DNA of 64,000 nt from Argentina anserina (Eukaryota; Streptophyta; Magnoliopsida; Rosales; Rosaceae). Each line of letters opens with the position of its first letter. Position 1 is the first letter of the stretch. Both the position numbers and the translations under genes were made by a program. Where the stretch lies: assembly GCF_933775445.1 (NCBI RefSeq), contig NC_065876.1:13888001-13952000 (forward strand). The letters are read 5' to 3'. Under the pieces are notes generated by a model. That model was not told where the DNA came from. It did no database searches and saw only the letters and a program-made list of their open reading frames with translations. This document shows, one piece after another, positions 14,601 to 51,222 of this stretch.

Positions 14601-15833
14601 AGAGCTTGATGAAGTGATCTACATGAAACAACCAAAAGGATTTATTGAAGCAGGGAATGAGAATTTGGTCTGCAAGCTGAAGAAATCAATTTATGGACTC
14701 AAGAAAGCTTCCAGGCAGTGGTACAAGAAATTTGACTCAGTGATTTCCTCTTTTAGATTAACTGAAAATCCAGTTTATGAGTGTGTTTATTTAAAAATAG
14801 TTGGAGATCAATTTATTTTATTAGTACTATATGTTGATGATATACTTTTGGCTAGCAGCAATCTAAAACTGCTAAAAGATACCAAAAGCTTTCTGTCAGA
14901 GAATTTTGACATGAAAGATCTAGGTGAAGCATCATATGTACTAGGGATTGAGATTAAAAGAGATAGAACACATAAACTGTTGGGATTGTCCCAAGAAAAT
15001 TACATTTCTAAAGTTCTGAAGAGATTTAGTATGGAACAGTGCTCTGGAGGAGAAGTTCCAATGTCTAAAGGTGACAAGCTCACAAAAGGTCAAAAATCAC
15101 AAACTGAAACTGAGAAGGAGAACATGAAGGAAGCCTCATGTATGCTCAAGTTTGCACAAGACCTGACTTAGCTTTTGCAGTTGGGATGTTATCAAGGTTT
15201 CAATCTAATCCAGGTTATGAACACTGGGTTGTAGGAAAAAATGTGTTGAGGTATTTACAGAAGACAAAGAATCACATGCTAGTTTACAAACAAGTCAAGG
15301 ATTTGAAGGTTATTGGATTTTCATATTCTGATTTTGCAGGGAATTACCCTGATTCAAAGAAGTCCACTTGTGGATACATGTACATGCTAGCAGGAGGAGC
15401 TATTGCTTGGAAAACTATGAAGCATGCATTGATCGCAACCTCAACCATGCAAGCTGAGTACATAGCAGTATATGAAGAAGTGTGTGAAGGGGTATGGATA
15501 AGAAATTTTCTACAGCAAACTCAAGTACTCAGTCACATTGTGGAAGACAAATTGGAAGTCTTTTGTGATAATGAGGCAGCTGTGTACTTCTGCAAGAACA
15601 ATAAGAGATCTAGCAATTCCAAGCATATAGATTTAAAGTATTACAGTGTTAGGGAGATGGTTAAAAGGGGTGAGTTAGTGGTTCTAAGTATAGATACAAA
15701 CTCACAACTAGCTGATCCTTTCACAAAAGCATTACCAGTTAAAGTGTTCAAGAAACACATAGAGAGCATAGGCATTTTGCCTAACTTAGATGCTTTAGGT
15801 CAGTGGGAGCTAAGTCCAGTAGGAGCAAACTAA
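11654..15833 (+). pseudogene. Copia gag-pol polyprotein, frame-broken
   Basis: Gag (from about 11654) ends with a zinc knuckle CYFCKKVGHMKKDC at about 12355-12396. The protease follows, but its usual D-S-G core reads DSES, so glycine is lost. Integrase shows the HRRLDHVS zinc-binding start, CIECFKGK, and catalytic-core blocks up to RSDRGGEF. Reverse transcriptase has the YVDD active site (about 14831-14842). RNase H follows, ending at 15833. Damage: a frameshift near 13495, an in-frame TGA near 13648, a frameshift at a poly-A run near 13690, a frameshift at a run of ten G at 14162-14171, and another near 15140. The long unbroken blocks agree with a young element inactivated by point lesions. 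Confidence 0.92.
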
Positions 15834-17760: not shown

Positions 17761-20700
17761 ATGGTTGACAGGGGCGGAAGTAAGTGGCGGACTGGTAGGG
17801 CTATAGCCCATCCGAAATTTTGACTAAAATACCCCCAACTATATATATCATCTATACCAGTCCTGCAGCCCAGATAAAAAAAAAGTTAAGCTAACCTCAA
17901 CTCTTATTCTGTTGACTTCCTCAGTTGTGTGATGTGGGTCAGTGGACATGGTTGCCAAGGTTGGAGTTCATCACTAGTTTGTTGAGTGCTGAATGCTGCA
18001 ATATGTTGCTGTGGAAGCAACCCCATTAGTGGAAGCTGGCTGCTCTGCTTTGGTTTCTATCAGAAACAAAAAATCATCCATCCATCCATCAACTGATCAA
18101 GGCTTTTTTGATGTCATCCACAGACACACACAGCATGTCAGTTTCTATCTCTCTCTTTGTTATTATTGCAATTTGTGTTATAGTTCGTTGTTTTGCTTTG
18201 AATATATGCTCTGTAATCAGATCCTCTTGAGTCTTGAACTGATTAGATCACTGTGTATACTTTGTAGTCTACATGGGACTCTTAATTGGTAATTGGAAAT
18301 TAATAGCTACATATTCTTGTTAGTTGTTAGTTGTTAGTGTACTTCTGAATTAAAGGCACCCCCAATCATCATGAGAATTCGAACTAGAGCACTCAGGCAT
18401 GCAACTAGGGTAGTTATTGGGGGCGTTTGAGGTCCATCTCAACTTGTTGGATCGTCCATTGCATATTTTCCAACTTATGTGACAGAATGTTAATTAGTTC
18501 AGCATTAAGAAACTAAATAATTAATGGAAGGTAATTGACCACTTTAAGCATTTCCATTACCTGTACAATATCATGGTACTACCTTGCAATGTTATTGAAG
18601 ACCTAGTTTTGTGCAAAAAGACCATCTGTTATATATCCTCCTAAACATAATATAGTTGTTATCAGTCTGCAGGAACAAAAAATTATGTACTTGTTTCATA
18701 CGTTGTAGTATTCAGTCAATTTTCTATCTGCTGAATACTGATCTTCCTTCAGAGCTGCTTCCTCCCCTTCCCGCTCCTCAATTATTAACTTTACCCTGAT
18801 ATACTCACCAGGAAAAGACAAACACACCATAGATCACCTTCTTAAAAAAAATACACACACACACACAATAGATCACACAGTAACAAGATGAAATATGACA
18901 GTAGTGCAGAAAATTATATATATTTGATTGTTCTCCCAAAGAATGGGTCTATAGATGCATCAAGTATAGTCACAGACTCTTGACACACACAATTATATTC
19001 ATATTGATTAGTACTTATAAAAGATGAGGGGGCTAATGATCTAGCAGAAAATGACATCTTAACTACTTTCTTGACATATAGGACACCTCATCTTAAGCCA
19101 CGAAACGTTTTCTGATATAATTCTCTAATTTCGATTATTAATGTCAGCTACTAGCACATGACAATGTTGTTAAGAGCGAAAGGAAATAAATATTTTGAAG
19201 GCGCAAAAGCACTCACCATATTGAGCTTCTGCGAAATGGGTAATGCAATTCCTTTTATAAGCAGGCACGGTCTATTTCGTTTTTTCGTCGCAGTTGTGTT
19301 TCAAAATGAAAGCATAATACTGATAATCACTGTTAGATGTATTGGTCAAAACCAACTGCCAATTTTTTCTTATTACTTGATTAATTTGCATGCAATTGTT
19401 GCCGCTGACAAACTATGTATGCATCTCCTAAATCAAGATATATAGACGAAAAAAATTTGCATGCAAATGACAACCTAATGGACGTCAACATTCACCAAAT
19501 TTTATATTGATCAATTTAAATTGCATGGATAGATGAGTTAACAATGGCGATGCTCATCTTATTTTGTAAAACTCAGCATATGACGTAATGTTGTGTGCAT
19601 ATAATTCTAATTTGGGCAAGCTTTGTACTCGTGTGCATATAATTCTAATATTGATACATTCATACATATATTATTATAGGTATTGACGTATTGTCTTATT
19701 GAGCATAATGACGGATAACAGAGAGCCAAAACGGTTGAAAAATCTTCTTGCATAGTTTGTGAGGGATCAAAGTAGTGGGAGTGAAAGTGGGAGAAATGAG
19801 ATTAGAAGTGAGGTTAGGAGTAGAAATGAAAATGTTGGTTCAGTGAATAATATTCTTGTAGAGTCTTCTCCATCTAGTCCACTAGAAGAGTCTCCATCTG
19901 TTCCATTAGAAGATGATCATAATGATAGAATTGGGGAGCAAACAATATTGATTTCACTTCTCTTCAACGTGACCCAGGATTAAGACAACCAATAGGCCAA
20001 TATCCTTTCAAATTCCGTGATAATGTTCGGAGAGCTTATGTTGTCTTAGGACCATATCAACCCTACTTAAGTAGTTATCCATCCTTTTGGGATGGAGGGC
20101 AGGGTCGAAGATTTTGTCACAAATGGTTTAAAGATTGGTCGTGGCTTAAGTATTCTGTAGAGGTGGACAAATCATTTTGTTTTCCTTGTTTCCTATTTAA
20201 TAGTTATCCATCCCACCATCCGGCATTCACTACATATGGGTTTAATAGTTGGAAGAATGTCAATTCAAAGAAGTCAGGCCTTCTTAAGTATGTGGGAGCC
20301 CTCAATTCTCCACATAATGCTTGTATGCGCCAATGGGAAGTTCTAAGAAATCCGTCTAAGCACATTGAGAGTGTGATTAGCACTCAATCAACACATGAAA
20401 AATTAGATAATCGACTTCGGCTTGTTGCTGCTATAGAGAGTGCAAGGTTGTTGGCACATCAAGGATGTACTTTTAGAGGTCATGATGAGAGTAGTAATTC
20501 ATCAAATGGTGGCAATTTCACTGTTTTACAAAATGCTTTTGGGAGGATGAATTTAGAAGTAAAAAGAGTCTTGGATAATGCCCCTGGTAATGCCAAGTAT
20601 TCTTCTCCACTTATTCAAAAACAAATCATAAATATACATGGTAACAAAGTTAGGACCAAGATTCGTGATGAAGTGGGAACTTCCAAATTATGTATCTTGT

Positions 20701-20881
20701 TGATGAAGCTGTTGATGTATCTAATAGGGAGCAAATGACTATCATTCTTCACTTTGTTGATTGTCATGGGTTTATTAGAGAACGATTTTTCAAAGTTATT
20801 TGTGTTGGAGACACTTGTTCTCAAACTTTGAAAAATGAGATATCCAAGGTGCTTGCTCAATATGATCTTCAAGTAAAAAAT

Positions 20882-21969
20882 AGGCATAAATGCCGATTTG
20901 CACCCCAAACTTGGCTGAAATTGTCAATTTGCACCCTGAACTTGTATTTGAGTCAATTTACCTCCTAAACTTGGTAAAAATTGCCGATTTACACCCCGAA
21001 CTTGTATTTGAGTCAATTTACCTCCTAAATTTGGTAAAAATTACCGATTTGCACCACATCCGTTAAATTTAACTGTTTTTATCCAATTTTGCGTCACATG
21101 TCATGCACATGAGGGGTAATATTGTCATTTTCTATTTATATTTTTCTTAAAAACAAATAAAAATATTCTTTAAAATGAGGATTATTTTGTTAATCAAATT
21201 ATTTATTTACATCTTTTTTTCTACTCACTTAACCCTATTTTGAATTATATATTCAATATACCCACCCATTCAAATATAGTGTGTTGTGTATAAATATATT
21301 TTTATATGTACACATTGTTGGAGGATGAACAAAACGAGAATAATAGCGACGTAATAGAACAGAACGTAACCGTTTATTGATTGATAATGTGGCCAATATA
21401 TAGGCATTACATAACCACAATCCCGTAGAATTCAGAGTCCTAATCTATTACAGAGATGCGAATCTATCTCTAACAGGAAACCTAATAAGGCTAAGACACA
21501 CACAATGGTAGAATAGTATTTCTCTCAGAACACACATTTATTTTTAATTTTAAATGTATTTATTTATTTATATTTTTTCTAATATCTTTTGACATACCAT
21601 ATCACATAAAATAATAAATATATAAATCAATAACATGTTTTGAAAAAACAAACATTGTAGCAAGTGTTCCTCTTAAGTAATTTTATTAATTTATTTCATT
21701 ATTCAATATGAATAAATATATAATGACAATATTACCCCTTAAATGCTTGACATGTGACGCAAAATTGGATAGAAACAGTTAAATTTAACGGATGGGGTGT
21801 AAATCGGCAATTTTTACCAAGTTTATGAGGTAAATTGACTCAAATACAAGTTCGGGGTGTAAATCGGCAATTTTTACCAAGTTTAGGAGGTAAATTGACT
21901 CAAATGCAAGTTCAGGGTGCAAATTGACAATTTCAGCCAAGTTTGGGATGCAAATCGGCATTTATGCCT
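20882..21969. mobile_element. Inverted-repeat (MITE/MULE-like) element nested in the hAT transposase
   Basis: 1,088 bp with long inverted ends: AGGCATAAATGCCGATTTG at the left and its complement at the right. It is flanked by a 7-bp duplication AAAAAAT (20875-20881 and 21970-21976). Each arm holds 60-bp subrepeats (GAACTTGTATTTGAGTC... spaced exactly 60 bases). It has no transposase, so it is non-autonomous. Removing it with one duplication copy rejoins the transposase frame exactly, which proves the insertion boundaries. The superfamily is unsure: the long, repeat-bearing arms suggest Mutator-like, but a 7-bp duplication is shorter than the usual 9. Confidence 0.85.
21316..21532 (-). mobile_element. 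Solo LTR nested inside the inverted-repeat element
   Basis: 217 bp, starts TG and ends CA, flanked by the perfect 5-bp duplication CACAT (21311-21315 and 21533-21537). Read on the minus strand it starts TGTTCTGAGAG and is clearly related along most of its length to the LTR of the copia relic at 43787-43970. It is a footprint of LTR-LTR recombination, and the innermost layer of a three-level nest. Confidence 0.88.
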
Positions 21970-23769
21970 AAAAAATATGAGGGGTCAAGGATATGATGGT
22001 GCGAGTAACATGCGAGGTCAATTTAATGGTTTACAAGCTTTGTTTAGAGAAGAATGTAAATATGCATATTATGTGCACTGCTTTGCTCATCGCTTACAAT
22101 TGGCTTTGATTGCCTCATCTAGAGGAGTGCATGATGTTTGACAATTCTTTTCTTCTCTAAATGTGATTGTGAATTTTGTTGACTCTTCTGCAAAACATCA
22201 TTCAACATTAAGAGTTATTAGAGAAGAGGAAATTGCAGATTTAGTGGCTGCAGGTAAACTTGAAACTGGTATACGGCCTAATCAGACTACTACTTTGCAA
22301 CGGGCAGGGGCTACTCGTTGGGGTTCACATTTTCGCTCTATTTCAAGTTTGATAAAAAAATTTGGAGCCACCCAGAAAACTCTTGCATATTTGGTAATTA
22401 ATGGACTTCCCAAAATACAAGGAGAAGCAAAGAGTGTAGGTAAAGCTATGAAGAAATTTGATTTTGTGTTTTGCTTGTTTTTGATGCATGATACCAGGAA
22501 GATTACTGATTTTCTTTGTCAGTCATTGCAAAAAAAGGCCATGGACATCTTAAATGCTCTAAGAGTTCTTTCTATTGCAAAACAAAAGCTTCAAGCCATG
22601 AGAGATAATGGTTGGGATAATTTGATTTTGAGAATAACATCATTTTGTTGTGAGCATAATATCATTGTTCCAGATTTGTCTACTCCTTACAAGAAAGGTA
22701 CAGAACGAGCTTGTCCAGAGGATATTATAAAAGAGCATTATTATCGGATCAATATACTTAATGCTCTGATAGATGTTCAATTGGCAGAGTTGGAGAGTAG
22801 ATTCCCAGATTAGTCGTTAGAGCTCCTTACTCTTAGTTCTACATTTGATCCGCATGATAATTTTCAGGCATTCAAGCCTGAAGATGTTTGCTCTCTTGCT
22901 TTGAGATTTTACCCTATGAATTTTTCTGCAGGTGATATGCTTGCTCTAGAGATGGAGTGTGGATTTTTTCTATCAGATGTTCAGAGTGATCTAAGATTTG
23001 CAAATACAACTTCTATGTCTGATTTATGTCGGCGGTTAGTTGAATCAAGAAAGTCGATTTTTTTTCCAATTCTTTATAGATTGATATGTCTTGTATTAAC
23101 TCTACCAGTATCTACAACAACTACCGAGAGAGCATTTTCATCTATGAATATTTTGAAAACTAGACTTCGAAATAGGATGGAAGATGACTTTCTTGATGAT
23201 TTGATGGTTCTCTACATTGAGAAAAAGTTTATTGATAGTGTTCACAATAATGATGTAATTGAGGAGTTCACAAAGTTAGGACCTCGGAGGGTATCATTCT
23301 GTTAGTTTTTATATTATGATTGTTGTAATTTTAAATTTACAGGGTTTTAATTTTATGTCATTCATGTTGTTTTTTTGAATTTAAATAATAAAGGCGTGAG
23401 AATGAGTCTCTCATTGAGTTCCAAATCTCAAACAAAAATTTGTATGCATGTGAAAAGTAGCCATACGCATCTTGAAAATCTAGTTCCGCCACCTGATGAT
23501 TGATCGATTAAAATTAAAGTTTCTCATTCTCTACGAATTCGTTACTTATCTTCTGATCGGGTAAATAACTAAAATACTAAAAAACGAGTGTTTTGTGAGT
23601 TGAACGACCTGTAACCAAGGGAGAGTGACATAGTAAAGTACCAAATAGTTACTTTTACAGTTTTACTGCAAAATGAAAAAGGATTTGTAAAAAATTGTAA
23701 CTTTTTACTGGAAGATGAAAAAGAAGCTTTCGAGTCACACACATTAAAGACCACGTTGAAAACCAAAAC

Positions 23770-35550: not shown

Positions 35551-38403
35551 TTACGGTTGAATTCTCCCATCCTCGGTTTCTATGTGGCTAACCCCTCTAA
35601 TCATACCCCAATCACCTTTATTCACCCTACAGTACTTTTGCTTCAATATCTCACTTTCTGAAATGATCAACCTTTTGAGTGATCTTGGTAGTCCTCTCCC
35701 CGGAAATGATTGAAGCTTAGGGCAACCATCGATTTCTAACTCCTCAAGAGCAGCTAAGTAGTACAATGGAGGTAGGTTGCGAAATTCCTTGCAAGCTATA
35801 ATGGTAAGCTTTCTAAGGCGAGGCATGTCAGATGCTTCCATTCCTCCCCAAGTACGCAATGCAGGCATTTCACTAAACTTTAGAGTTTCCAAAGATGGAA
35901 AACCCTCTTGCCCACCATCTGATTGAAAAAACGGACTATCCACAGTTACCAAACTTTTCATTTCTTCAATGACAAGATGTTTGAGAAGATGAAGTCCCCC
36001 TAGTGAAGGGAGGAGTGTACAAGATCCGCACTTTCTTAGATTCATGGTCACAAGCTTGCAAAACAAAGGGTTACTCATCCAATCTGGAAATTTTGAACCA
36101 CAGTAACCTATAATTTGTAACTTTAGCACGCTTGGATGAGGTTCGAGGCCCTCAAGAACTGCTTGATCGACTGTGTTGGATCTATTAGCTTCCCATCGCA
36201 GCTCCAATTCCTCCAAGTATTGCTTTTCTTGTAACTTAGCAGCCTTAGCTTCTTGGATAGTTTTCACCTTCTCAAGCTTTTTAATGCAAATTGATCCACG
36301 GAGGCATCTCATCTCTTTTAGCTCCTCTATTGTTTTACCCCGTTCACTTCCCACTACAAAAACAGTGAGGGTTTCAAGACTAGTCAACTTCCCAACATCA
36401 ACAGGCATGGAATTGACTTTACCAAGTTTCTCAAGGTCCATGTGCCGTAGCTTGATCAACTTGTTTAAGTTCTCAGGCAGCTCCTCAAGGTTGGAACAAT
36501 TTTTGACATTGAGTCTCTCTAACCCATTTAATTGATCTATCTCCTGTGGGAACTTTATTATCAAGGTACCGCTAACATTGAGGTGACGAAGATGTCTCAA
36601 CATTTTAATATCTCCAGACAATTTAGAGATGCGAGTACCACTCAAATTTAACACTCTTAAGCATGGAAACTTCCGAAAGAAATCAACAGGAACACTTAAA
36701 AGCTTGTGTGGGTACTTAGAGAGCAACATAAAAGTCCTTAACTTCTCATACCTGTAAAACTCTTCGAACAGACCTGATTCAACTTGTTCATGACAAATCG
36801 AGGAATGCCGGATATTTGTCGATATGGGCAAGACTTGTGGCCTTGTATCCTCAGAAGAAAAGCATAAGTTGGTTGAAACTATTTTCGCCAAGTCATGAAT
36901 GAAGCCATGCATTTCATACTTTCCTTCACAGGGTTTCTCTGATGAAACTTGAAAAAAGGACCTTGAGCACAACTCATCGAAGTACTCTATTCCAATATCT
37001 TCAATTCTTCTTGTTCCTCGGGCTTGAATGAAGCCTTCAGCTGCCCATAGTTGGATCAAATCATCCCTTTGGAAGGGACGATTGCGAGGCAGAAGAGAAG
37101 AATACGCAAAACATCTCTTCAGATAAGCTGGCAAATGATCATAACTTCGTTTTAGCACTGGATAGATCAGATTCTTATCTTCTGCCAAATTCCACAGCTC
37201 ACATCTTAGAATCTCATCCAACTCCATCTCTTTCGATTTGAGACGCATGACACTCCCGATCAACTTCGCCACCAATGGAACACCTTTACACTTCTCTGCT
37301 ATGTTTACCCCACTCTCCTCACTAAGACTTGATTTCATCAAGCTTTTATTGATAATATCAAGACAATGTTTATCTGACAAACCACCCAAGCAATATGTAC
37401 TGCTATGATCAGCAACAATGGATGAAACAACATGGCTCCGAGTAGTTACCACAATTACGCTCCCGGGTGCTGCAAATCTAAATGGCAATGTCAAGGCATC
37501 CCAATTAATGGGATTCTCATCACACATGCCATCTAGCACGAGCAAAAACTTGTCCTTTTCCCCTACAGTCTCCTTCAATTTGAGCTGAACAGAGTCGAGA
37601 GTCGACAACTGCGCAATGCTGGGATCCGGAACTGTCTTCGTAGTGGCTTCACATATGGACTTGGTGATCTTGAGCACATCATCGCCGAAACCAACACTGA
37701 CCCACCACATTCTTTTGGCCCCAAACTCCTTAACAACCTCTTGGTCATTGAAACCCAGCTGCGCAAGTGTTGTCTTCCCAATCCCAACCAAACCCACTAT
37801 TGAAACCACAGAAACTGCTGTCTTGTCCCTCTGCTTAGACACCAACTCCAGGACTTGCAGCCTATCCTTTGTCCTCCCAACTACAGAGCGCTCATCAACC
37901 ATAGAACCTCTGTGACTCTGAGGAGGAGGAGCTGAAAATGTATGAGCAGGCCTGGGTTGGCTTAGTTCGGAGATAGTGTAACCCTCCATTTCGAGAGCTA
38001 AACCATTCACCTGATCCACCATCGCTCCGACCTCTTTCCCGAGCTTTCCCTCAAAGGCTTTCAAATCCTTGTCCAACTTGGCTGGCCTCAGTTGCTGAGA
38101 GTATATCCTCTCATATTCCAGAAGAGTCTTATCCAGCAGATCATCTGCATCCAGAAGAACATTCTTGAAATCTTCGATTATGATCTGATAGGCATTGGAG
38201 ATTGAAGCCTGGTTGTCGGCATCGTCGACATGGGATTGGAGTTTCAGCAGTCTTCTTTCCAGCTGTTGGACCTTTAGGTTGATCTCCGGGTCTCGTGATC
38301 TCAGCTTCCGACCGACTTGAACGAGTTTCTTAGCAACGTCAGGCAGGAATGCCGACGTGATGCCGGTCCCCAGTACTAGAGACAGTATTTCGACAATCGG
38401 CAT
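35551..38403 (-). CDS. CC-NB-LRR (CNL) disease-resistance-like protein
   Basis: Intracellular immune receptor of 950 residues in one exon. A coiled-coil/Rx-type domain (about 1-150) has an EDVID-like acidic stretch at DADDLLDK. NB-ARC follows: P-loop GLVGIGKTT at 204-212, kinase-2 LLVLDGMC at 287-294, RNBS-B GSVIVVTTR, GLPL variant GVPLV, winged helix CFAYSSLLP. The MHD position reads MHG (498-500), then IHDLAK. LRRs run from about 560 to the end, ending with the 'CPKLQSFPGRGLP' type seen in RPM1/I2-like plant NLRs. Odd: the second kinase-2 Asp is Gly292, the kinase-2 Trp is Cys294, and MHD Asp is Gly500, all normally strongly conserved. The frame is open throughout, so it may still act, for example as a regulator or sensor. 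It is head to head with the TIR-NLR at 44971. The start is the first ATG of the open frame. Confidence 0.95.
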   Translation of the reverse strand: MPIVEILSLVLGTGITSAFLPDVAKKLVQVGRKLRSRDPEINLKVQQLERRLLKLQSHVDDADNQASISNAYQIIIEDFKNVLLDADDLLDKTLLEYERIYSQQLRPAKLDKDLKAFEGKLGKEVGAMVDQVNGLALEMEGYTISELSQPRPAHTFSAPPPQSHRGSMVDERSVVGRTKDRLQVLELVSKQRDKTAVSVVSIVGLVGIGKTTLAQLGFNDQEVVKEFGAKRMWWVSVGFGDDVLKITKSICEATTKTVPDPSIAQLSTLDSVQLKLKETVGEKDKFLLVLDGMCDENPINWDALTLPFRFAAPGSVIVVTTRSHVVSSIVADHSSTYCLGGLSDKHCLDIINKSLMKSSLSEESGVNIAEKCKGVPLVAKLIGSVMRLKSKEMELDEILRCELWNLAEDKNLIYPVLKRSYDHLPAYLKRCFAYSSLLPRNRPFQRDDLIQLWAAEGFIQARGTRRIEDIGIEYFDELCSRSFFQVSSEKPCEGKYEMHGFIHDLAKIVSTNLCFSSEDTRPQVLPISTNIRHSSICHEQVESGLFEEFYRYEKLRTFMLLSKYPHKLLSVPVDFFRKFPCLRVLNLSGTRISKLSGDIKMLRHLRHLNVSGTLIIKFPQEIDQLNGLERLNVKNCSNLEELPENLNKLIKLRHMDLEKLGKVNSMPVDVGKLTSLETLTVFVVGSERGKTIEELKEMRCLRGSICIKKLEKVKTIQEAKAAKLQEKQYLEELELRWEANRSNTVDQAVLEGLEPHPSVLKLQIIGYCGSKFPDWMSNPLFCKLVTMNLRKCGSCTLLPSLGGLHLLKHLVIEEMKSLVTVDSPFFQSDGGQEGFPSLETLKFSEMPALRTWGGMEASDMPRLRKLTIIACKEFRNLPPLYYLAALEELEIDGCPKLQSFPGRGLPRSLKRLIISESEILKQKYCRVNKGDWGMIRGVSHIETEDGRIQP

Positions 38404-38859
38404 GATGAAAATATGGCAAGTTAAGAAAAGCTTAATTGGCCATGGAAATGTTTACGGTGGTTGACGAACCAGAGAAAAGCTTATTGTTTTTAGGAAAAAT
38501 TACAGATACACCCAATTTTCAAGCCCACTTTTCAAATACACCCACACCCTTTCTTTTTTTAATCTACACCCAAAACATAGAACAACATTCCTTAAAGAGT
38601 TTTTTCTATCATTTGATATATTCAATTTATTTGTTCCAGTTTACGTTTTTTCCCTTTTAATTAAAAAAGAAAATTGTCTCCCTAAATATAGTTGTCAATG
38701 ACAACGAAAAATATCTCCCTAAATCAATTAACAGGTTCAATCAAGTTAGAGAAACGTACGTAAAGTTAATGGAAAGTCTTTTTTAAAGGAAACTAACACA
38801 CCTATACTTTAGAGGAGTTATATGCTTGGAAAAAAATGACAAAATTATATGAAAAAGTC
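38404..38859. promoter_or_regulatory. Upstream region of the CNL gene
   Basis: About 460 bases between the CNL start and the copia relic. It holds a block with repeated TACACCC words (38500-38575) that resembles, in inverted orientation, sequence at about 44817-44900 beside the TIR-NLR. No clear TATA box is chosen. Probably the original spacer of the NLR pair. Confidence 0.45.
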
Positions 38860-38864
38860 AAAAC

Positions 38865-38956
38865 TGTTCCGGGAGAATTACTATTCTACCCTTGTGTGTG
38901 TCTTAGCCTAATATGTTTCATGTTAGGAGATAGATTAGCATCTCTGTAATAGATCA
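38865..38956 (+). repeat. Truncated 5' LTR of the NLR-spacer copia element
   Basis: The first ~92 bases match the right LTR (TGTTCCGGGAGAATTAC to CTCTGTAATAGAT) and then similarity stops abruptly. A deletion removed the rest of the LTR and probably the primer-binding site. Confidence 0.85.
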
Positions 38957-39069
38957 CGTTATCACGCACTTTACCCTAAAATCCTGAACTTTTAGAGCCC
39001 TAGAAATTTTTTCTATTTCTCCACCGCCGGCCGTCGTCGTGTCCGGCCTCCGACATCTTCTCGTCGGCG

Positions 39070-39310
39070 CAGCCCCTGCTCGCCGTCACTGCAGCCCCCA
39101 CCCCCCCCCCCCCCCCCCCCCCGCTGCTACCTCTGCAGCCCCGCACGCAGCCCCGCATCGCAGCTCCTGCAACCCCGCTGCCTCTGCACGCAGGCACGCA
39201 CACAGATTATGCCATGCAGCCCCTGCGACCCCCCTGCAGCCCCGCACGCAGATCCTGCGCTGCAGTCCCTGTGACCCCCCAGCTGCCCCTGCACGCAGCC
39301 CCGCAGGGTC
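39070..39310. repeat. GC-rich tandem repeat with poly-C run
   Basis: A run of 22 C (39101-39122) is followed by imperfect repeats of CTGCAGCCCCGCACGCAG-like units up to about 39310. It is strikingly GC-rich compared with all surroundings. It lies in the leader of the decayed copia element and generates several overlapping spurious open frames. Confidence 0.85.
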
Positions 39311-42300
39311 TCTTCCGCATTCGCTCCGTAAAAACATATTTTTGCCCCGCAAGACCCCGCATCAGAGGATTCAAAATTGATCCTCCCGCACAAGCAAACT
39401 CTTTGCTCAAGAGAAGCTACTCCCGTCTTCTCTACCCTTTTGGGCATATGGCCTATCGAGCACAATAGCCCTTTGGGCTTCATATTATATTTTCTTTTCC
39501 TTTTCCTTTTTCCTATTTCATTATTTAAATGTTCATTGGCACGTTTTTATTTCTAACGATATTTCACATGCTCATATAGGTAAAATCATTGCTCGTCGTA
39601 CTATAGTGATGACATTCATGCCGAGATGGATGATACTTTTGTCATCTACATACGATTTTGATCGTATCCTCCCAAGATTTTATGTCATCGGATGAAGATC
39701 GAAAAGGAATTCATCAAGCAACTTCATGTATGACGATCGATTTGCAGTGCAATTTAATTATATGCGGTCTATTTGGCAGACCAACAAGTATGTTTTTCTT
39801 AAAGTTGCTGCTTTTGAACATATATATATTATATCGGGCGCTATTAGCCTTCTTCTTGTCTTAATTCCGGCCTTTCTTATAACGCCGATGAGACTATAGA
39901 GGGATGGGTTTATTATTATTGGTGACCACCCACACCAATTGGATGGGTTTTACCACCCAAATTGTTTGGTATTCAACTGCTCCAATACCATGTTTTTCCG
40001 ACTCTTGAGTTGAAGAATGTAGTTCTATTGCCATGTGATACATTCGATGGAATTGCCATTTGTTTCAATCCCCTCTCTTACAATATCCTATGGCGTATTG
40101 TGTAGAGAAGTTCACCGCGTCGTTGACTCTCTTAATCTTCATTTTGAGAATGTCCCGCCGTGAAATCGAGTATCTTGCTAATTGCGTCACCACCCACACT
40201 GTCCTACGGCGCAGGTAGTTGTTTTACGGATCTCGTGCGGAGATTGTGTTATATATCTTCTTGTCTTGCTAAGTTTTAAAGGCCATACATGCCAATGATG
40301 GATTTTCATCTTGATATTTGTGTTCAGAATGGAGAGGAATAAATCTGTCAGATTTCATTGACAATATCTTTTTCAAGCTTCGACAGTAGCTTTGTTAGCC
40401 TGCAGACATAGTTTTGCTTGCCTGCAGCAGTAGTTTTATGTAACTCAAGATTCTTTGAATCATGGGTTCGGTTTTACTGTCTTCTCGGTTTTGACATGAT
40501 CATTTTTTTTGGTCATTTTGAACCAGATATGATGATTCGAGTTCTTTGAAATTCACATGATCATCTATTTTTCATGTTCACGAAGCGATTGGAGGACCAC
40601 CTCACCCATGCTCCACACGGTGAGGCCGTGCCTATCCGTGACATGCACGGTGAGGCCGAGCCTGCCTCTTTCGGCGGCTCCATGGAATTAAGGCCATCGG
40701 TGGCAGCATCCCCTCCTTCATAGGAGCTTGTGATGCCTCCCGTGTTTTCTAATGCCTCCATGACACTCTCTGATGTCTATCGCTCATTTTGCAAAGCTTG
40801 TTCTTTTGCTAGATTTCAAGGAAGTCCTTATTTTCTAAGGCTCAAACTGAGAACATTCCATTCTTACAAAGTATTTAAGGTGACATTAGTGGACCCTATC
40901 CAACCGAATGCAGACACTTTTCGGTATTTTTATGGCATAGGTTAAGAGCATCGACGCGTTGGTCACACGTCGCTTTGCTTTCCACAAGAAACGCTACATT
41001 CGCTAAAGTTTTTAGCTTGATCATCATCCTAAGGGATCACCACCCTTCCCATCCTCTCAAATCTATTTGATTAGATATCGTTGGAGAGTTCACCTCCACG
41101 ACTTTGATGATTTCGTTTTGCTTATCTACTGGGATCGTCGTTGAACATATTATTCCTCATGTTCATTCACTGCATGATCTAGCAGAGCCCGGACTTGGTT
41201 ATGGGTACTAACCTGCCGATTTTTGCATGGGGATATGTAATGATGTTGCATGCAGCGACACTTATTCGTTTCAGACCCACAACTTGCCAAGAGTTTAGTG
41301 CGTACCAGATGGTCACTGGATACGGTCCCAATGTTCTTTTCACTAAGGCCTATTTGGTTAAAATTGTTTATGTGCCTCTATTGTAGTTATCTCAATGGGT
41401 CTACTTGAAACGATTAAGTATTCTGGTTGGTTATGATTTATGAATCACCAACACTTAACCGCTATTTCCAATCTACAACCGTGGATCTCTATCCTGCAAT
41501 ATTAGCAGACGGTCACTTTGATGAGACATACTTCCTGTCGTTAGGAGGAGATATGGAATGCTCTCATTCCGGTTTTCACGCCAGGAATTGACGTGGTGTG
41601 GTACTATGTCTCATTAAGATCCCGCACTACTCAAAGTGAGCAAATGTGCAACGCATTATCTACCTCCAGAAAGTCAAAGATTCGATGCTCAATGACTTTA
41701 CCGATATTGCGAAAGTGACGAGATCGCACATAAATGATGTGATGTGCCGGTAAGGTTGGAACTCTCAGAATATGAGAGAATTTCATATGACCTGGTCCTA
41801 GCATTGTTGGCACAATCCCTGACAGTGGGAAGGAAGCCGGTGATGGCCCCATCGTAAGCTGTGGTGTTGTCGGCGCCCATGGTATTGCACCACAAAACAA
41901 GGGCGGCAAACGCAAAGATGGACTAGTAAGGGTCATAGCTTCGGTCTTGGCTCCTGCCTAGATGAGGGGGAGACCATTATTCTCTGGAATCAAAACCAGA
42001 AAGAAGCGAAGTGCGTAGGCACAAGTATTTCGCCCATCATCAAGAGATATTCTCTAAACATGTGTATCAACTAAGTTTCTGTGGGACGCTACAGACTCCT
42101 TTTGTTGATGTTAGAGAAGAATAGAAATCTCACGAATTGATCGTATATAGCGCGCGTGTGTTTAATAGATTGATCTACCATGATTAATGATGTATTCGCT
42201 TATGCTCTTATTCCATTGTAAAGCATCAACGATGAGCAACTTGACCGAAGTGGAAAGAATCAATACAGGTTGAACTAGACTTGTTATGTTGGTCGTTGTT

Positions 42301-43786
42301 CGTAAGTGTAATGAGAAAGATGAAGTCATGCGATATATGTAGGACTTATGGCGCAAAGATTGTCTCATTATCCTAGTATTGACTACGATGAGTTATATTC
42401 TCTCGTTATGGACATAATTTCTTTCTGCTACTTGATCAGTAGTAGTGTCCATGAAAACTGATTTGCAGCATATGATAGTGGTCATAGAATATCTGTAAAG
42501 GGATCTTGACGCAGATATGAGAGTGCCTGAGGGACTTTAAATGCCTTTAGACCACGGAGAGCTTATGTAATCAGATTGCGACGTTCGAGAGAACGTAGTA
42601 CAATCAGTTGCAAGAACTCATACCCATATGTGTTCATATGAAAGCTAATTCTTGATTCTCTATTCCGTCTAAGTATAGATGATGAAGAGATTCAATGAGC
42701 TATACATTCATACATGTTAGTGTTGTTGGGACACTATTGCTTTCATTATGACGTGATTACCTATGCGCCTATGCATCGTCATTGAACTTGCATTGCTCCA
42801 TTGACATGGGTTTAGTTCTACACTTAGTGAACCAACACAAATCCTATCCACAGCAACGCCGCCAACAGCTCCAGCAACATCAACGTACCCTTGGTGTAGC
42901 AGTCAACACTGGTAGTGTAAAGGATACGTACGGTTCCGCTTCGGACCAAATTCAGTCCTTCATTGGTCCATTCCCCCATTCTTTTTGCGAAAGACACATT
43001 AAATGTGACAAATCAGAATCTGTCTAGTTTTGTAGGTCAACTTCAACGAGACCTACAAGACAGCTCGCTTGATGAAATATGATGAAATTGATACCATTGG
43101 AAAGGCCTAAGTGTCGACTTTCCAGGGACACCAACCATTCATTCATAGCTATCATATTGAGTGAGTTATGGCCGTTTTAGCAAAGTATGACAGTCCTATC
43201 CGGAAATTTGCAAGTCAGACAACTTCGACAGAGCATTGTGAACTGCTCTGATCGGATAAGGTTGTTAACCTTATGTCACTGGAAAGCCACGGGTGTCTAA
43301 TTTTCAGAACATTTTACGGTTCACTGATACCTATTTTAACGAAGAAGTTATGGCCGTTTAAGTAAGTGAAGGTCATTTTACCCGAGAATCTGATTTTCAT
43401 TGCAAACTCTTGTTTTGAGTTGTTATGCAATCTTGTTTCCTAAGATCTAAGTTTGGCTAAGTATAGCATGTATGATCTAAGGATGTGTGGCTAGATTAAT
43501 GATTAATCATTATCCCAAGACTACGTTTGAGAAGCATGTAATGAACGTTGTGTACGTTGTTCTTTGTACTCCATGATTATGGCACTAATCAGGGGGAGTT
43601 ATTTCGTAGACTTCAGGGGGAGTCTAGCTCACATGATTCTATCAAATGTAGACGGTGCGTTGTACTTTTTTTCCCTTCGATCAAGCTTTTTTTTTTACCC
43701 AAGAGATTTTTATTTTGCTTGACAAGGTTTTTACCGAGGCAACGATATGTGCACCATGCAACCTAGGCATGCGACACAAGGGGGAG

Positions 43787-43970
43787 TGTTCCGGGAGAAT
43801 TACTATTCTACCCTTGTGTGTGTCTTAGCCTAATAGGTTTCCTGTTAGGAGATATATTAGCATCTCTGTAATAGATTAGGACTCCGAATCCTACGGGATT
43901 GTGGTTTTGTAATGCCTATATATAGGCCCCCATATCATTCAATCATACACAATTATTTCATTCTGAAACA
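43787..43970 (+). repeat. 3' LTR of the NLR-spacer copia element
   Basis: 184 bp, begins TGTTCCGGG and ends CTGAAACA, directly after the polypurine tract. It contains TATATATAGG, the likely LTR promoter. The same family as the solo LTR at 21316-21532. Confidence 0.88.
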
Positions 43971-43975
43971 AAAAC

Positions 43976-44970
43976 AAAAATGATAGAGCGTTAATTAAAA
44001 TGTCTATAATAAACTCTGTAAAACATCATCGTTAGTATAGAATAAACAGAGATCCTTCAGTTCGGGAAATTGAAGTGAACTCTAAACTTTTAGTATTAAC
44101 AAACCCCCTCTATCGAATAGGCACCTCATTCCTATCCCACAGACAAATACTATCAGATAGGTAGAACACCCTACCCAACCAGAAATTACACCCATAAGAC
44201 CCAACACTTTCTACGTAATAGCCAACTCCCTCCTACCACATATACAAATCCCATCAGAACGGAAAAACATCAAATAAGCAATTCCTACCTAACACAAAGG
44301 AAAATCCAACCTGAAATTAAAACCTCCACATCCAACACTCCCTCTCCAATACGTACCTCCTTCCTACCACACCGGACACACCTCCTCTCAAACCCACGAG
44401 TAGAGAGTTACATACCGGAATAAACAAATAAAACAGGTAGACAATATTACATACTGGAATAAGCAGAAATAAAACAAGCCGATGCCTCAATGCCACCCAC
44501 CACCACCCTCCGATTGAGCCATCCATTTATACCAAAAAAAAAACCGCCGGATATAGAGAATTAAAGTTGAGGATGCTGAAATTGAAACCGTTGTATTGAT
44601 TATATGATTTGACTAATGAAGGAGATAAGAAATACATAGCTAGAATCATGCAGATTCATGATTCTTGGGTTATGAAGGAGTTCGAAACGTAGTTTCAATC
44701 ACACGTGATATCGATTGTTTTGTTTTGGGTCTTTAGCATGGTTCGTAAATTCTTGCAAAACAGGGTACTGTTTACTAAGTTAAATATATATTTTTAAAAA
44801 TTAAAATTCAACCTAATAAATAGGTTTGGGTATAATTTGAAATAGTGGGTTTATTCTGAAAAAGGTCAAACATTTTGGGTGTATATCTAAATACCCCTTG
44901 TTTTTATGATTTGCCTTTGGAAACATCAAGTTGGCCGAGCCCAATTAGCCTCAGATCCAGTCCCGGAACC
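43976..44970 (+). promoter_or_regulatory. Upstream region of the TIR-NLR gene
   Basis: About 1 kb between the copia relic and the start codon. A C-rich/A-rich low-complexity stretch lies at 44100-44520, and a TACACCC-rich block (44817-44900) is inverted relative to the one beside the CNL. No confident core promoter elements could be named. Confidence 0.4.
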
Positions 44971-47900
44971 ATGGCCACCAGCAGCGGAACCGGTGTACCA
45001 TTTCCTCCGTCATCGGAACCAACATGGGAGCACGATGTCTTCTTGAGCTTCAGAGGTAAAGATACACGCCGTAGCTTCACATCCCATCTCTACCAGGCAT
45101 TGAAACATGCTGGAGTCCGCGTCTATTTTTATACTGAGCAATTAGGTAAGGGAGACGTTTTAGGCGGTCTGCTGAAAACAATAGAAAGATCGAAGATCTA
45201 TATCGTCGTGTTTTCCGAGAACTTTGCAAGTTCCGAATGGTGTTTGTTGGAGCTGGCGAAGATCATGGAGTGTAGATCAACGTATGGCCTGATGGTACTT
45301 CCAGTATTCTATCATGTCGAGCCTTCAGATGTGAGATACCAAAAGGGTAGTTTTGCAAAAGCATTTGCTGAACACGAAGTGAGGGGCAGGTCAAGTCGGG
45401 AGGAAATAGATATGTGGAGAAGGGCTCTAAAGGAAGCTGCGAGTTTGTCGGGCTGGAATGTTCTCAACTACGGGTAATTACTCATCTGCTTGCCGCATGA
45501 ATGATCTATTTGTCACTTTCAAACACAGATTAGTTCCTCAATTTAAGTTCTTTGATCTCGCTCACTTGAACAACTTATGTATATGTATTGCCAGATATAG
45601 TAACTGATCTAATTAAGCTGCCTGGACTAGAACCTAGAGTTCCATCATGCTTTTAGAGAGCTACTACACTGAGGGGTTTAGTCTGATCTGTGCTTCTCTT
45701 TGACACTTTAGTACTGCAAGCCAATGTGTTAAGAGTTGTTATATTTTTTGTTCTTTTTGCTGAAGCATATTGCTACCGAGTTTTCATAGTGAATTTCAAG
45801 GGTACAAAACCACTCTAATAATTCCTTCACTATTTGTCGAACCATAAAGTATTACTGTTTGAATTATAATTCCAGGAGTGATGCGGAGGTCATCAGGGAG
45901 ATTGTAAAGACAATTTCTAAACAGTTGGCGGAGCCGAACCCAGAATTCCATGCTGAGTCGCCAGAAGTTGATGATAGACAGTTAGTTGATCCAGAAGTGA
46001 CTGTAGCCAGATTTCCTGTTGGAATTAAGTCTCGAGTGGATGATTTGGTTCGTCATCTGAATTTTGGGTCAGACAAGGTACGAATGGTTGGAATTTTTGG
46101 GGTCTCAGGACTTGGAAAAACAACGATTGCCAAAGCTATGTATAACCAATATCATAAGTGCTTTGATGGTGCATGTTTTCTTGTCAATGTGAGGGGCATT
46201 ATAAAAGAACCGAATGGTCTGATTAGTTTGCAGGAACAACTTCATGATGTCTTGGAAACAAAGATAGACGTAGGAGTTGTTTCTGCAGGGGTCCAGCAGG
46301 TGAAAAGGGAAAGAAGGATGCTAGTCATGATTGATGACATAGATGATAGTAAACAACTAGATCAATTAGCCATAAACCGTGATAGGTTTGGTTCTGGAAG
46401 TAGAATTGTAGTAATAACAAGAGAGGATGGTTTGCTAAAGCAGCTTAAAGTGAATACAACATATTTGCCACGATCAATGAACAAAGAGGAAGCAAATGAG
46501 CTCTTCAGCTGGCATGCCTTTGGGAAGTGTTCTCCTGATAAAAAATATTCTGAACATTCAAGAACTGTGGTCTCTTATGTTGGGGGTTTGCCACTGTATC
46601 TCATGGCTGTAGGTAATAAACTTAATGGAGAAGGCATAGAGATGTGGCAACAGGCGCTGAGAGGTATTGCAATCAAGCAAGCTAGAATTTTGGAAGAGTT
46701 ATTGCTGTATTGTTATTCCCTCTTTCCAACAGGTTATGAATTCAGAAAAGATGAGTTGGTTCAATTGTGGATTGCTGAAGGCTTTATCGTGGACAAGTAT
46801 GCAGAGAGGATGGAGGATACTGGCATTTCATATTTCAGTGACTTGGAGAACGAAGGTTATTTTTTGCTCTCAAGAAGTGATTTTAGAGTTGATTTTGATT
46901 TGGTCTCCTCGGTGACATGCAATTCCAACAACCTGTACGAGCTTAATACTGACAAGGCTGATGTTGTGAAAAACAAAACTTCTCGGGATCATTATTCCAA
47001 AGGCATGGATCCGGTTTCTGTTTCAGAAAACATAGAATGTCGAGATGATTCTTTCAGAGCAGTGGATCCAGAGTCTATCTCACAAGACACAGCTTCTCAG
47101 GCTGAGGATGAATTAAAAGCGGTGGATGAACCTTCTAGTTCAGAAAAGATAATTTCTTTGGCTGATAGTATTTTTGAAACCCTGGATGTGATTTCTGTTT
47201 CAGAGAACACACTTTCCCCGGCTAATGATTTGAGAGCCAGGGAAATGGTTTTTGATTCAGGGTACACAGCTTCTGAGCTTGATTATCTTAGAGCCGTGGA
47301 TGCAAATCTTAATGGAGCCTCTGCAACTACACGACATTTATCTTTAACGAGCAAGGACATTGATGGTATATGTTTTGGGGTTGTTGAAAAACTGAACAAA
47401 CTGCGCACTCTGCTTTTTCTCTCGGATAGTGGATCTTCCATTACACATGTTCCTCGTAATTTCTTTTGGAGCTTAAAGTTATTGAGAACATTGAAGTTGC
47501 GTGGAACACATATTTCTGAATTGCCAAGCTCCATTCGAAATGTCAAAGAGTTACGATATCTTGATGTCTCTTACACACCCATTACACGGTTGCCTGAATC
47601 AGTAACTTACCTTCATAATTTACAAACCTTAAAGCTTCGAGGTTGTGTACAATTTGATCAGCTACCAAAGGATCTGGAGAAGCTAACCAAGCTACGCCAT
47701 ATTGAACTTGATATCATGCGGCAACTGGATTCCTTGCCTACAAACTTGGGGAACTTGACTCACCTTCAGACACTGTCAGCATTTCTTATTGATAAAGACG
47801 AAGGGTGCCATATTGGACAGTTGAAGAATTTAAATGACCTCAAAGGAGCACTCTGCATTTCAAGGCTTGAAAACGTGATGAACGTGGAAGAGGTCGTGGA

Positions 47901-48636
47901 AGCTTCTTTGGTTCAGAAGAAATTTCTCGATAGGTTGGAGCTCCGGTGGAGTCATCTGTTATCTACAAACAAAGAGGAACAAGAAGAAATCCTTGAATGG
48001 CTTGAACCCCATGGTGGCCTTAAAGAGCTACAAATACAATACTTTGGTGGATCAAAACTTCCAACTTGGATTAGTAGTCCATCTTTTGCTGTCCTTGTTG
48101 CTGTTACCCTCTATAGATGCAAAAATTGTACACTTATCCCATCCATGGGGCAATTACCAGCGCTTAAAGTGCTTTCCATTATGGAGATGAATGAGGTGAC
48201 AGAAATTAATCATCAATTTTTCCGGAATGGCCAATCTAATGATCAAGCTTTCCCTGCATTTCCAAAGCTTGAGAGACTAGAAATTGACATCATGCTCAAA
48301 CTGAAAGAGTGGAAGGAGCTTCAGACAGGTGACTTGCCATCTCTACTTAAGCTCACAGTGGACTCTTGCCCAGAACTTGAAACACTTCCGTCACTCTCAA
48401 GCATTTTTTCACTCAAGCAATTGGAATTTAGGAGCTGTCCAAAGCTTCAGCCCAGTGATCAACTACCAGATTCCCTTCAATCGTTGATGATTGTAGATTG
48501 CCCTCGAATCAAAGAATGGTTCCATGAGGGGGATGGTGAAGAATGGAGCAAGAAGCATCGTAGCATATGGCTTGATGAAGAAGAGGTAAGTAAAAATGGA
48601 ACCATGGTACATTATAATCTTTTTCAGTTCTCATGA
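44971..48636 (+). CDS. Chimeric TIR-NB-LRR: TNL-type TIR and NB core, CNL-type winged helix and LRR
   Basis: Immune receptor of 1,087 residues from two exons (44971-45473, 45876-48636; GT-AG, TNL-like intron position after the TIR). TIR domain about 19-165, with DVFLSFRGKDTR and SSEWCLLEL, whose Glu94 is at the TIR NADase catalytic position. The NB core is TNL-like: P-loop GVSGLGKTT (243-251), kinase-2 MLVMIDDIDD (316-325), GSGSRIVVITR, GLPL (405-408). Then it switches: YCYSLFPTGYEFRKDELVQLWIAEGFI (from 446) is a CNL winged helix. No MHD motif follows. Residues 545-641 are five ~20-residue repeats, and the LRR (about 655-1065) resembles the neighbouring CNL. Only ~37 residues separate GLPL from the winged helix, versus ~53 in typical CNLs. 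A strong donor (GAAGAG then GTAAGT, 48586) could give an alternative C-terminus. Start: ATG in a good CCATGGCC context. Confidence 0.9.
47005..47295 (+). repeat. Five imperfect 57-60-bp in-frame repeats in the TIR-NLR
   Basis: Each unit encodes about 19-20 residues of the pattern (V/M/L)DP-S-S---------D---(R/K)A. Units start at residues about 545, 564, 584, 604 and 623. DNA blocks such as GTGGATCC, TTTCTGTTTCAGAAAA and GCTGATGAT recur. Ser/Asp/Glu-rich and probably disordered. It sits exactly between the winged helix and the LRR. Confidence 0.8.
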
Positions 48637-51222
48637 ATAAAAATATATTGGTTTTGTATGCTCTGATCGATGAAGAAATAAGGAGAAAGTTCTTTGATTT
48701 GTTTATTGCTTAATAATGTTCCAGAAGTATTTATGCAAGATTAGTTGGTGGAACTCTGATGATAGATTGACTAAATTTTTTATTTATTCCTACTCTGCTG
48801 TATTTTGATCTTTTTGGAGTAACATCTTTAAAATCTCTTCCATTCTTTGAATATTCTTGCATGTCTCCTCTCTTTTTTGAGCTGGAGGAGGTCAGAAATA
48901 GCATGTCTCCTCTTTTACCTGGGAGCTACACAAAATGCGAAGCCTATTACATTTAGTCGTATCTGATAGTCTTTGCTTTTACTTGTTTTGAATCGGATAG
49001 GATAGGATGATTATGTCATGAGTTTTCGTGTATTTACTCCTTGCTAAAAGCCTTAGTACACTTAACTTATATTCATCGATAAAAAATTGTAATAATTGGA
49101 TTGGCCTTTTCACTTCTTTTTGGTAACACTCGACAGCCTACTTTTCAATAAGACTGTGGAGTGTTACCAAAAAACGAGAAGGTGCACAATCTGTCCCAGA
49201 GTATCAAGATACAAAATGCTTACTGTTTCATTGGTTTGTGTTGTTTCAGATCAAGTTCTAGCAGAAGGGTAAACTGGCATCATGTGTCTCTGAAGAGACT
49301 GCTCCAACGATTAGTAGAGAAGGTAATGTGTCTCTTTTCCTTCTCCTTAAAATAGGTTGTTAGGTTTCCTTTTCCATCTTTACTTTGCTTATGACATGAG
49401 AGACGCTGTTTTTGAATATATTAAGTATGTTGCTGTCATTATCAATGAAGCTTTATCAAAAACCCAATCAGTCCAACTCAATTAAACAGCAATCTAATCC
49501 ATTCAAAAAAAAAAGGAAGCAATCTAATAACTTTTACACTGCGCATTTAATTGTTTGGTATCATTGTGTGAGTTTGAACAAATTAGGACGAACGTGAGCA
49601 GTATCTTGATTGAATTTGAATAGATAAGCATCACCAAAAATTTTCCTGCAAAATCATCGATTGTGGACTTCCATATGCATGGGTATTATTTAGTGTTTCA
49701 TGAATTTATTTTAATGGAATTTTTTTATCTTAATAGCTGTGATGCGTCTGCTGATGGAAAATGAGCAATAAATACGAAATACTGCATTTATTGAAATCTT
49801 GCTCGTCAGTGTCTCAAATCATACATTCTTTCGTGATAAAACCAGTACCTTAGAATGAATTTGGGTTATACCACATGCATGTTGATCAATTAGCAACACC
49901 AAATTTAGGTTTAAAAATTAATTGGTTTGCATTATGAGCCTCTTTACCAGTTCATACAAGTGATGTATATCATTTTGGAATTTGACTCGTGCACTGGATT
50001 GATCAAACTATGACATTAATCGGTTTGTTCTTTTCTTGGCTTGATATAATTTGTTGATAGGTTCATGAAAAAATATTGCTCAAGATGTCTATCCACTTGT
50101 CAACATACGCCTTCGTTGGCGATACCGGCGGTGAGCTGAGATTTGCTGCAATAAAGAGCAAGATATTTGGTAGAAAATCTGGAAAAAACTGTTTCGTTCG
50201 ATGTATAATATTTGTTTGATGTCATTGAGATAGTACCAATAAGGTTGACATAAGAATCTCTGATAAACAGTTGATCCGAACTCGGAAGTTTAGGATAAAT
50301 TCTCCTGTAGTCCTCTCCAGGCATTACTTGTTCTCTCGATGTAATTATTATATACACATAGCATGAGTTGTGCATCCTTGCACAGAAGTTCTAGTGGTTC
50401 GTGTCTTTTCATCGAGTTTTTGTACGGAAGACATGCCTAAAGAAATATCACTATTAATGTCTTGTCTTTATGTACGAAAACTTCTTGAAATGCTCAATAA
50501 AAGGAGCCTATTCTGATTGATTTTCCAAAGTCAGACCATTGGAACTCAGTAATTCTCATTCCAGAGTATTGAGCCGCTCACATCATCCTCCAAAAAAAAC
50601 ATGTAGATTTGATATTCGAAGATTTCAATGGTATGTGCAGAGTGCACCATCCTTCATTTAACGACATTAGAGTTCCAACGCCTAAAATATGACAAGTTAA
50701 TCTGATATCATTTCCTTCTAGAACCAAAATTTTACTGCGCCAAACAATTGTACCAATTTTCTACAAGTTTCACCGATTAATAGTTCGTATGTTCCAAGGA
50801 TGTATCCTTTTGAGATAACAACTTGGTCAAGTTGATAGTGAAATCAACTTAGATAAGTCGATGTAAATCATGTAATACTGCATTAATGTTTAGAATTGCA
50901 ATAATGCAATTATATTAACAACTTGACCGCTCATCAACCGGCCAGTAGATTTTTAGAGAAACAGATACCGACAACTTAAGTGTAGATTCTCAAAAGTTAA
51001 ACTACAATTGTTGGCCCTTTTTATTAGAAGTCAATAATTGGATTAAATTGTATATCCCAAATTCCCAACAGTCGTAATTACTATCCGGGGGGCGGGGACC
51101 AAAGTCGAGAGTTTCCACTATTTCCAACTATGTTATGCACTGCTAGCTTCTAATTAATAATTATAAGGCTTATCATTGCTATTAGTGATCACTTATCAGA
51201 CATATCATGCTTTTGCTTGTGA

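Follow-up and report, generated by a model that had tools for sequence, protein, structure and literature searches.

Known pairs of nucleotide-binding leucine-rich repeat receptors (NLRs) are mostly arranged head-to-head, with an integrated domain in the sensor and a helper that executes the response, and NB and TIR:NB segments are themselves counted among the integrated domains (both according to excerpts of PMC9528088). HMA, kinase, WRKY and VQ domains are known integrated domains as well (parts of PMC9528084, PMC9528088 and PMC4759884), and VQ is listed as such in Rosaceae (part of PMC4759884). Here we analysed a gene of silverweed (Argentina (Potentilla) anserina) that crosses two receptor classes, the TIR-type NLRs (TNLs) and the coiled-coil-type NLRs (CNLs). 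It lies on the + strand of a 64,000-nucleotide stretch of C5 in the 237-Mb genome (NC_065876.1, positions 13,888,001 to 13,952,000; hereafter the window). This one gene, the chimera, genuinely fuses TIR-NB sequence from a TNL to a winged-helix-leucine-rich repeat (LRR) protein. The latter belongs to an old, CNL-derived and apparently undescribed family.

Results

Gene model and integrity of the join

The chimera protein P0001 (1074 residues; database title 'disease resistance protein RPV1-like [Argentina anserina]') is the exact translation of window positions 44971-45473, 45876-48585 and 49250-49261, and both introns are bounded by GT..AG. A preliminary description of the locus gave the gene as 44971..48636; this end is that of the open frame, but the annotated coding sequence stops at 49261. 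Pfam profiles placed, in this order, a TIR, an NB-ARC, a CNL-type winged helix and an R13L1-type LRR on the + strand, within the following features:

44971..45473, + strand: exon 1 with the TIR domain (residues 21-164; PF01582, E 1.8e-42; exact match to P0001)
45250..45252, + strand: codon of Glu94, the TIR NADase catalytic position (aligned to the position substituted in RUN1 E100A, 7s2z)
45474..45875, + strand: intron 1, GT..AG, lying between the exons for TIR and NB, an arrangement shared with the ordinary TNL P0031
45876..48585, + strand: exon 2, a single open exon with NB-ARC, winged helix, spacer and LRR
46081..46680, + strand: NB core of TNL origin, P-loop at 46099-46125 and GGLPL at 46582-46596 (PF00931, E 2.9e-22, profile positions 4-225 of 248; NB tree; identity to P0031)
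46690..46710, + strand: the join, residues ~440-446, within a predicted helix of residues 422-450 (BLASTP, structure model)
46708..46974, + strand: CNL-derived winged helix, with NLYELN (46930-46947) at the place of the CNL MHD motif (PF23559 WH_DRP, E 6.3e-14, profile positions 1-49 of 71; alignment and motif counts)
46975..47283, + strand: spacer, predicted to be disordered (predicted local distance difference test, pLDDT, <50), with a shorter form in Fragaria P0002 too (alignment)
47326..48582, + strand: R13L1-type LRR of the winged-helix-LRR family (PF25019, E 6.1e-46; trees)
49250..49261, + strand: exon 3 of the annotated model, the three last codons and the stop (match to the P0001 translation)

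Chimeric gene models are common in NLR clusters, and the join might accordingly be an artefact of assembly or annotation. It falls, however, within a single 925-codon open frame that no intron interrupts. Since the window contains no ambiguous bases (N) and the published assembly was built from HiFi reads at 36-fold coverage with a consensus quality value (QV) of 55.3 (part of PMC11162522), an assembly error within exon 2, which the preliminary description had named as fatal to its reading, is unlikely, and we consider an artefact of either kind very improbable.

A TNL front half meets a CNL-derived back half

The front half keeps the P-loop (residues 243-251), MIDDID (319-324) at kinase-2, RNBS-B (342-350) and GGLPL (404-408). 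In the alignment, Glu94 matches the position mutated to Ala in RUN1 E100A (chain 7s2z); a catalytic-position Glu and TNL-like motifs had been noted earlier. The catalytic Glu is present, so TIR NADase activity is possible as a prediction. The NB is 53% identical to that of P0031, an ordinary TNL of the same genome, over 234 residues and is nested in a Rosaceae TNL clade (support 0.948, NB tree), and the intron between TIR and NB sits at nearly the same residue in both genes (first exons of P0031: residues 1-171 and 172-538).

The BLASTP match to P0031 stops at residue 443 and that to the winged-helix-LRR protein P0007 of Rosa begins at residue 440, in agreement with the earlier proposal that CNL-type sequence starts near residue 446. 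Up to and through ARC1 the chimera tracks five aligned Rosaceae TNLs; about 14 TNL residues between ARC1 and the winged helix are absent. Separate trees of the segments, which had been named beforehand as a check, placed them in two classes: the NB among TNLs, the winged helix (support 100) and the LRR (97) in a CNL-derived family. The proposed fusion of a TNL-class TIR-NB with a CNL-class winged helix and LRR in one gene is thus upheld. Measured against class definitions, the chimera has the TIR and NB of a TNL without the TNL winged helix and MHD, and the winged helix and LRR of a CNL without the coiled-coil front and the CNL-class NB. When the full TNL P0031 was compared with the window, it matched only the TIR, the NB and, weakly, the LRRs of the chimera and of a neighbouring CNL; a remnant of a TNL LRR was not found there. 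A tandem-repeat origin of the spacer was rejected, as no array was detected, and RNA family models had no match in the window.

An AlphaFold2 model of the chimera (53 sequences; mean pLDDT 76.2, predicted TM-score (pTM) 0.60) predicted residues 422-450 as one continuous helix that spans the join, and residues 535-637 with low confidence. In Foldseek comparisons the TIR alone was a good fit to the RPV1 and RUN1 structures, and whole NLRs matched the model only at query TM-scores of ~0.2-0.34. We take the poor whole-receptor fit to mean that the model leaves the arrangement open, not that it proves a new one.

The back half belongs to an old winged-helix-LRR family

Protein searches were performed with chimera exon 2, Rosa P0007 and Pyrus P0003, and the best 120 matches of each were listed. 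The best 7982-7988 candidates were scored, and Arabidopsis and monocots were not deliberately sampled; the sampled range of the family is therefore a lower bound. Among the matches listed, close relatives of the winged-helix-LRR part mostly lacked an NB-ARC. They formed one clade (support 0.999 in a tree built from 90 sequences out of 349) that spans Aquilegia, Thalictrum, Caryophyllales, Lamiales, Gentianales, legumes, Fagales, Rhamnaceae and Rosaceae, with branching roughly in species order. A mixture-model tree of 55 rows put the family on one side of a branch (40/40 rows used, support 99), and the family was recovered by the winged helix alone (100) as well as by the LRR alone (97); of the 51 family rows, 12 were omitted from the former tree and 15 from the separate winged-helix and LRR trees. 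P0168 fell outside the partner group in the mixture-model tree, in which the chimera paired with P0002 of F. vesca (support 100). From these sequences we conclude that the chimera back half is part of an old eudicot family of winged-helix-LRR proteins, CNL-derived and mostly without NB-ARC and MHD.

According to the Pfam lists, 45/52 family members have no NB-ARC and 7/52 have one (P0001, P0003, P0149, P0167, P0235, P0237 and P0240). The chimera is an exception to the loss, and its NB-ARC is of TNL origin. By eye, the NB-ARC front pieces of Prosopis P0149, Senna P0237, Sesamum P0235 and Perilla P0240 appeared RPS2-like. Since the records of P0002 and P0121 begin within the winged helix and that of P0124 at it, a missing NB-ARC carries little information for these three. 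An MHD-like motif was found in 0/52 family members versus 36/38 CNLs of the same alignment; LYELN occupies its place in the chimera. MHD and YKVN were counted by regular expression, and the YKVN-like pattern also hit 7/38 CNLs.

Four family members were found in Argentina: the chimera in the window, P0130 at C5:28.137 Mb, P0121 at C4:21.757 Mb and P0144 at C3:34.297 Mb. Within 8.5-9.5 kb at each of the other three, we detected no NB-ARC of their own; the sole NB match came from an opposite-strand CNL on C4, and 9.5 kb of DNA around P0121 held none on its own strand.

Partner domains were probably acquired repeatedly

Diverse domains accompany the winged-helix-LRR module. Above Pfam cut-offs we found VQ (P0127, P0193), Myb (P0132), kinase (P0238, P0151), IQ (P0151), CBP60-type calmodulin-binding (P0243), importin-beta N-terminal (P0242) and HMA domains (Rosa P0007, Argentina P0121), and, as pieces of NLRs, NB-ARC (P0237) and TIR (P0139, P0144, P0233). 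A WRKY in P0154 (17.9 versus 21 bits) and VQ in P0138 and P0150 (16.0 versus 20.5) stayed below the cut-offs; inspection by eye alone suggested a VQ in P0140 and a GARP-like Myb in P0162. In P0004, P0005, P0006 and P0008 the partners differ, and the modules are 81-93% identical to that of P0007; these four possibly are merged neighbours and were left uncounted. Merged tandem genes are likewise possible where a TIR occurs with a TNL LRR (P0233, P0126, P0128, P0003). The fusions were checked at the DNA level at the Argentina loci only. There, the HMA of P0121, a candidate fusion, maps to stretches located downstream of its module.

The kinase partner of P0151 has plant MKK5 as its nearest structure (E 6.4e-71; next 2.7e-29), and a regular-expression search for the DFG motif was negative in 4/4 kinase partners tested. 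The N-terminus of Rosa P0122 matches one open frame in Argentina, C5:28405073-28406056, in two blocks of swapped order; kinase pieces follow this frame (HRD-less fragments, RDIKCANLLV, ADFGLAK). Both the gene at this frame and the P0122 N-terminus we take to be MEKK1-type. The frame sits ~0.27 Mb from family member P0130, and a second Argentina match to the P0122 N-terminus lies at C5:20995731.

TIR pieces occur on seven family members (P0001, P0003, P0126, P0128, P0139, P0144 and P0233). Glu occupies the catalytic position in 4/7 (P0001, P0126, P0128, P0233); it is changed in 3/7 (P0003, P0139, P0144), and in the latter the change would suit a bait better than an enzyme. Pfam found no NB-ARC in P0139 and P0144. 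In the NB tree the NB of Pyrus P0003 groups with P0114 and P0115 (0.999), and a single clade of this NB with that of the chimera was rejected (p-value of the approximately unbiased test, p-AU, 0.0037). The TIR tree requires 4 changes, of which the starred branches force 2. A single TIR capture for all seven was also considered, and the TIR by itself does not reject it (p-AU 0.065, and 0.157 for the chimera with Maleae). Because the TIR alone permits one origin while the single NB clade is rejected, we claim at least two captures of TNL pieces in the family, not four. Judged from the proteins sampled, pieces of NLRs from a different class apparently serve as partners outside Rosaceae as well.

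The chimera might be a fusion that has no selected function and is decaying. The chimera departs from TNLs by its short ARC1 link, its lack of an MHD and an altered TIR loop region, and its three Argentina relatives have suffered losses: in the DNA of P0144, for example, a TIR exon and a short GT..AG intron precede an exon that opens TNL-NB-like and continues directly into the winged helix, the NB core being absent. Yet the chimera retains 1074 open codons and canonical splice sites, and Fragaria P0002 keeps the chimera-type back half together with part of the spacer (84% identity over 398 columns). We therefore regard decay without function as unlikely.

The neighbouring CNL is a divergent neighbour, not the donor

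Upstream of the chimera, the window contains a second NLR:

35551..38403, - strand: neighbouring CNL, the proposed executor (NB-ARC, WH_DRP and R13L1 LRR; Rx_N below cut-off)
38404..44970, no strand: gap of 6567 bases separating the divergent coding sequences of CNL and chimera (coordinates)

The preliminary description had proposed that recombination within an NLR cluster built the chimera, whose LRR it likened to that of this CNL. Recent recombination with the CNL would be a simple origin, as it lies only 6.6 kb off and has an R13L1-type LRR as well. A donor test, in which the chimera and its Fragaria orthologue were grouped with the CNL and its paralogue on C4, rejected this origin: the constraint cost 208 log-likelihood units (p-AU 1.4e-43), and the winged helix alone was 38 units worse (p 0.0039). 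In the mixture-model tree the CNL is joined by its C4 paralogue (99) and by Perilla P0276 and spinach P0013 and P0180 (97); this group and the winged-helix-LRR family come together when the tree is rooted on distant CNLs (0.987). The likeness of the LRRs therefore holds at the depth of shared CNL ancestry but not for any closer relation, the back half stems from a separate old family, and recent recombination with the CNL is extremely improbable.

The two genes start head-to-head, from 35551-38403 (-) and from 44971 (+), and are thus divergent neighbouring NLRs. Only one close paralogue of the CNL was present among the 49 genome matches listed (best candidates scored), at C4:21736423-21738273 (51%; next 36%). 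Pieces of its front part occupy 21754944-21755908 in the same orientation, and Ty3-like retrotransposon gag-pol-like frames split its NB part from its winged-helix-LRR part (9.6 kb between them examined). Family member P0121 begins at ~C4:21756580 on the opposite strand, ~0.7 kb past the start of the paralogue. Both CNLs of this kind that were found therefore stand head-to-head with family members, in the window and on C4. The neighbouring CNL has LVLDG at kinase-2 and MHG in place of MHD; MHE replaces MHD in the C4 paralogue and in two spinach-group relatives.

Elsewhere in the window, inspection of translations by eye suggested broken copia-type retrotransposon frames (11654-15833, +) and hAT-type-transposase-like frames (20163-22813, +).

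Discussion

Given the fused origin described above, we consider the chances about even that the chimera acts as the sensor of a head-to-head NLR pair, with its TIR-NB as the integrated domain and the neighbouring CNL as the executor. A CNL-derived winged-helix-LRR scaffold would repeatedly join partner domains, and the silverweed sensor would be paired with the neighbouring CNL (35551-38403). The TIR-NB of the chimera would serve as bait or as an auxiliary NADase; an effector would contact the TIR-NB or the LRR, and the scaffold would pass the contact signal to the CNL, which would then execute the response. Architecture and ancestry are well supported, and it is the function and the mechanistic steps that we infer. 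The TIR-NB is an immune component; its role as the integrated domain of an NLR, for which it would have to stem from a protein targeted by effectors or from an immune hub, is putative.

Several points weigh against such a pair. A gap of 6.6 kb is rather long for two genes to share a promoter. The pairing is seen at 2/4 Argentina family loci, at one of which the CNL is broken up, and no such CNL was found within 8.5 kb at each of the other two. Outside Argentina, the evidence for partner fusions comes from gene models. Direct output from the TIR is possible because Glu94 and the P-loop are intact, and this leads to the principal rival: a self-contained receptor in which the winged helix and LRR restrain the TIR-NB until a ligand lets the TIR NADase assemble. 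The RPV1- and RUN1-like fold of the model TIR and the retention of Glu94, P-loop, kinase-2, RNBS-B and GLPL agree with it. But there is no MHD-like motif, the stretch from ARC1 to the winged helix is shortened, the TIR catalytic position is changed in three relatives, and P0139 and P0144 have a TIR but no NB-ARC match. We find a self-contained receptor rather unlikely. Since its winged helix lacks the MHD and the link from ARC1 is altered, the NB of the chimera probably does not work as a canonical ADP/ATP switch. The earlier idea that CNL-type ARC2 and LRR parts control the TIR is sound insofar as a CNL-class winged helix and LRR are present, but switching by ARC2 is doubtful (MHD in 0/52, ~14 residues missing, a continuous helix); the LRR may or may not control the TIR.

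Extending the sensor-executor pair to the whole family is tentative, and we rate it slightly below an even chance. Since before the split of Ranunculales, eudicots would have kept switchless, CNL-derived winged-helix-LRR sensors with exchangeable ends, which would hold either duplicates of immune-hub proteins (presumably MEKK1-type, MKK5, VQ, CBP60, HMA, perhaps WRKY) or parts of other NLRs (TIR, TIR-NB, TNL, CC-NB); in Rosaceae at least, a head-to-head related CNL would supply switch and output, and the silverweed bait would be the TIR-NB of another receptor class. If sensors can shed the nucleotide switch, the two proteins of an NLR pair may divide switch and recognition surface between them. 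If the family-wide reading is true, most of this class of candidate sensors escapes NLR inventories that start from the NB-ARC, and the partners of the family amount to a catalogue of likely effector targets. A concrete question that the silverweed chimera makes accessible is whether a TNL front signals through, or is guarded by, CNL-derived parts.

Keyword searches of the open-access literature (titles and abstract starts) turned up no recognisable winged-helix-LRR family without NB-ARC and no comparable join of TNL and CNL. The survey of PMC4759884, as far as its accessible part describes it, would omit members without NB-ARC because it began from the NB-ARC. Integrated domains and head-to-head pairs are already known; the family-level reading is newer and depends partly on gene models.

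With TNLs such as RPV1, RUN1 and Roq1, the chimera shares the TIR, the NB sequence and the intervening intron, but it lacks their winged helix, MHD and LRR. With CNLs that have an R13L1-type LRR (RPP13-like protein 1 or RGA type), it shares the type of winged helix and LRR, but it has neither coiled coil nor MHD, and its NB is TNL-type. The name of the apple 'TCNL' genes implies TIR and CC classes, but their motifs are TNL-type throughout (FLDISCFF, MHDLLRE; part of PMC4169499). The pairs RRS1/RPS4, RGA5/RGA4 and Pik-1/Pik-2 resemble the silverweed locus in having a scaffold with extra immune-related domains and a divergent neighbour, which for the chimera is the CNL; they differ in that most scaffolds of the winged-helix-LRR family lack NB-ARC and MHD and that the pairing and function of these are putative. 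Lr10/RGA2, Fom-1/Prv and RPP2A/RPP2B have, like the chimera, a second NLR piece within one partner (excerpts of PMC9528088). In these excerpts the piece is added to a CNL or a TNL, whereas that of the chimera precedes a scaffold otherwise without NB-ARC and crosses the boundary between TNLs and CNLs.

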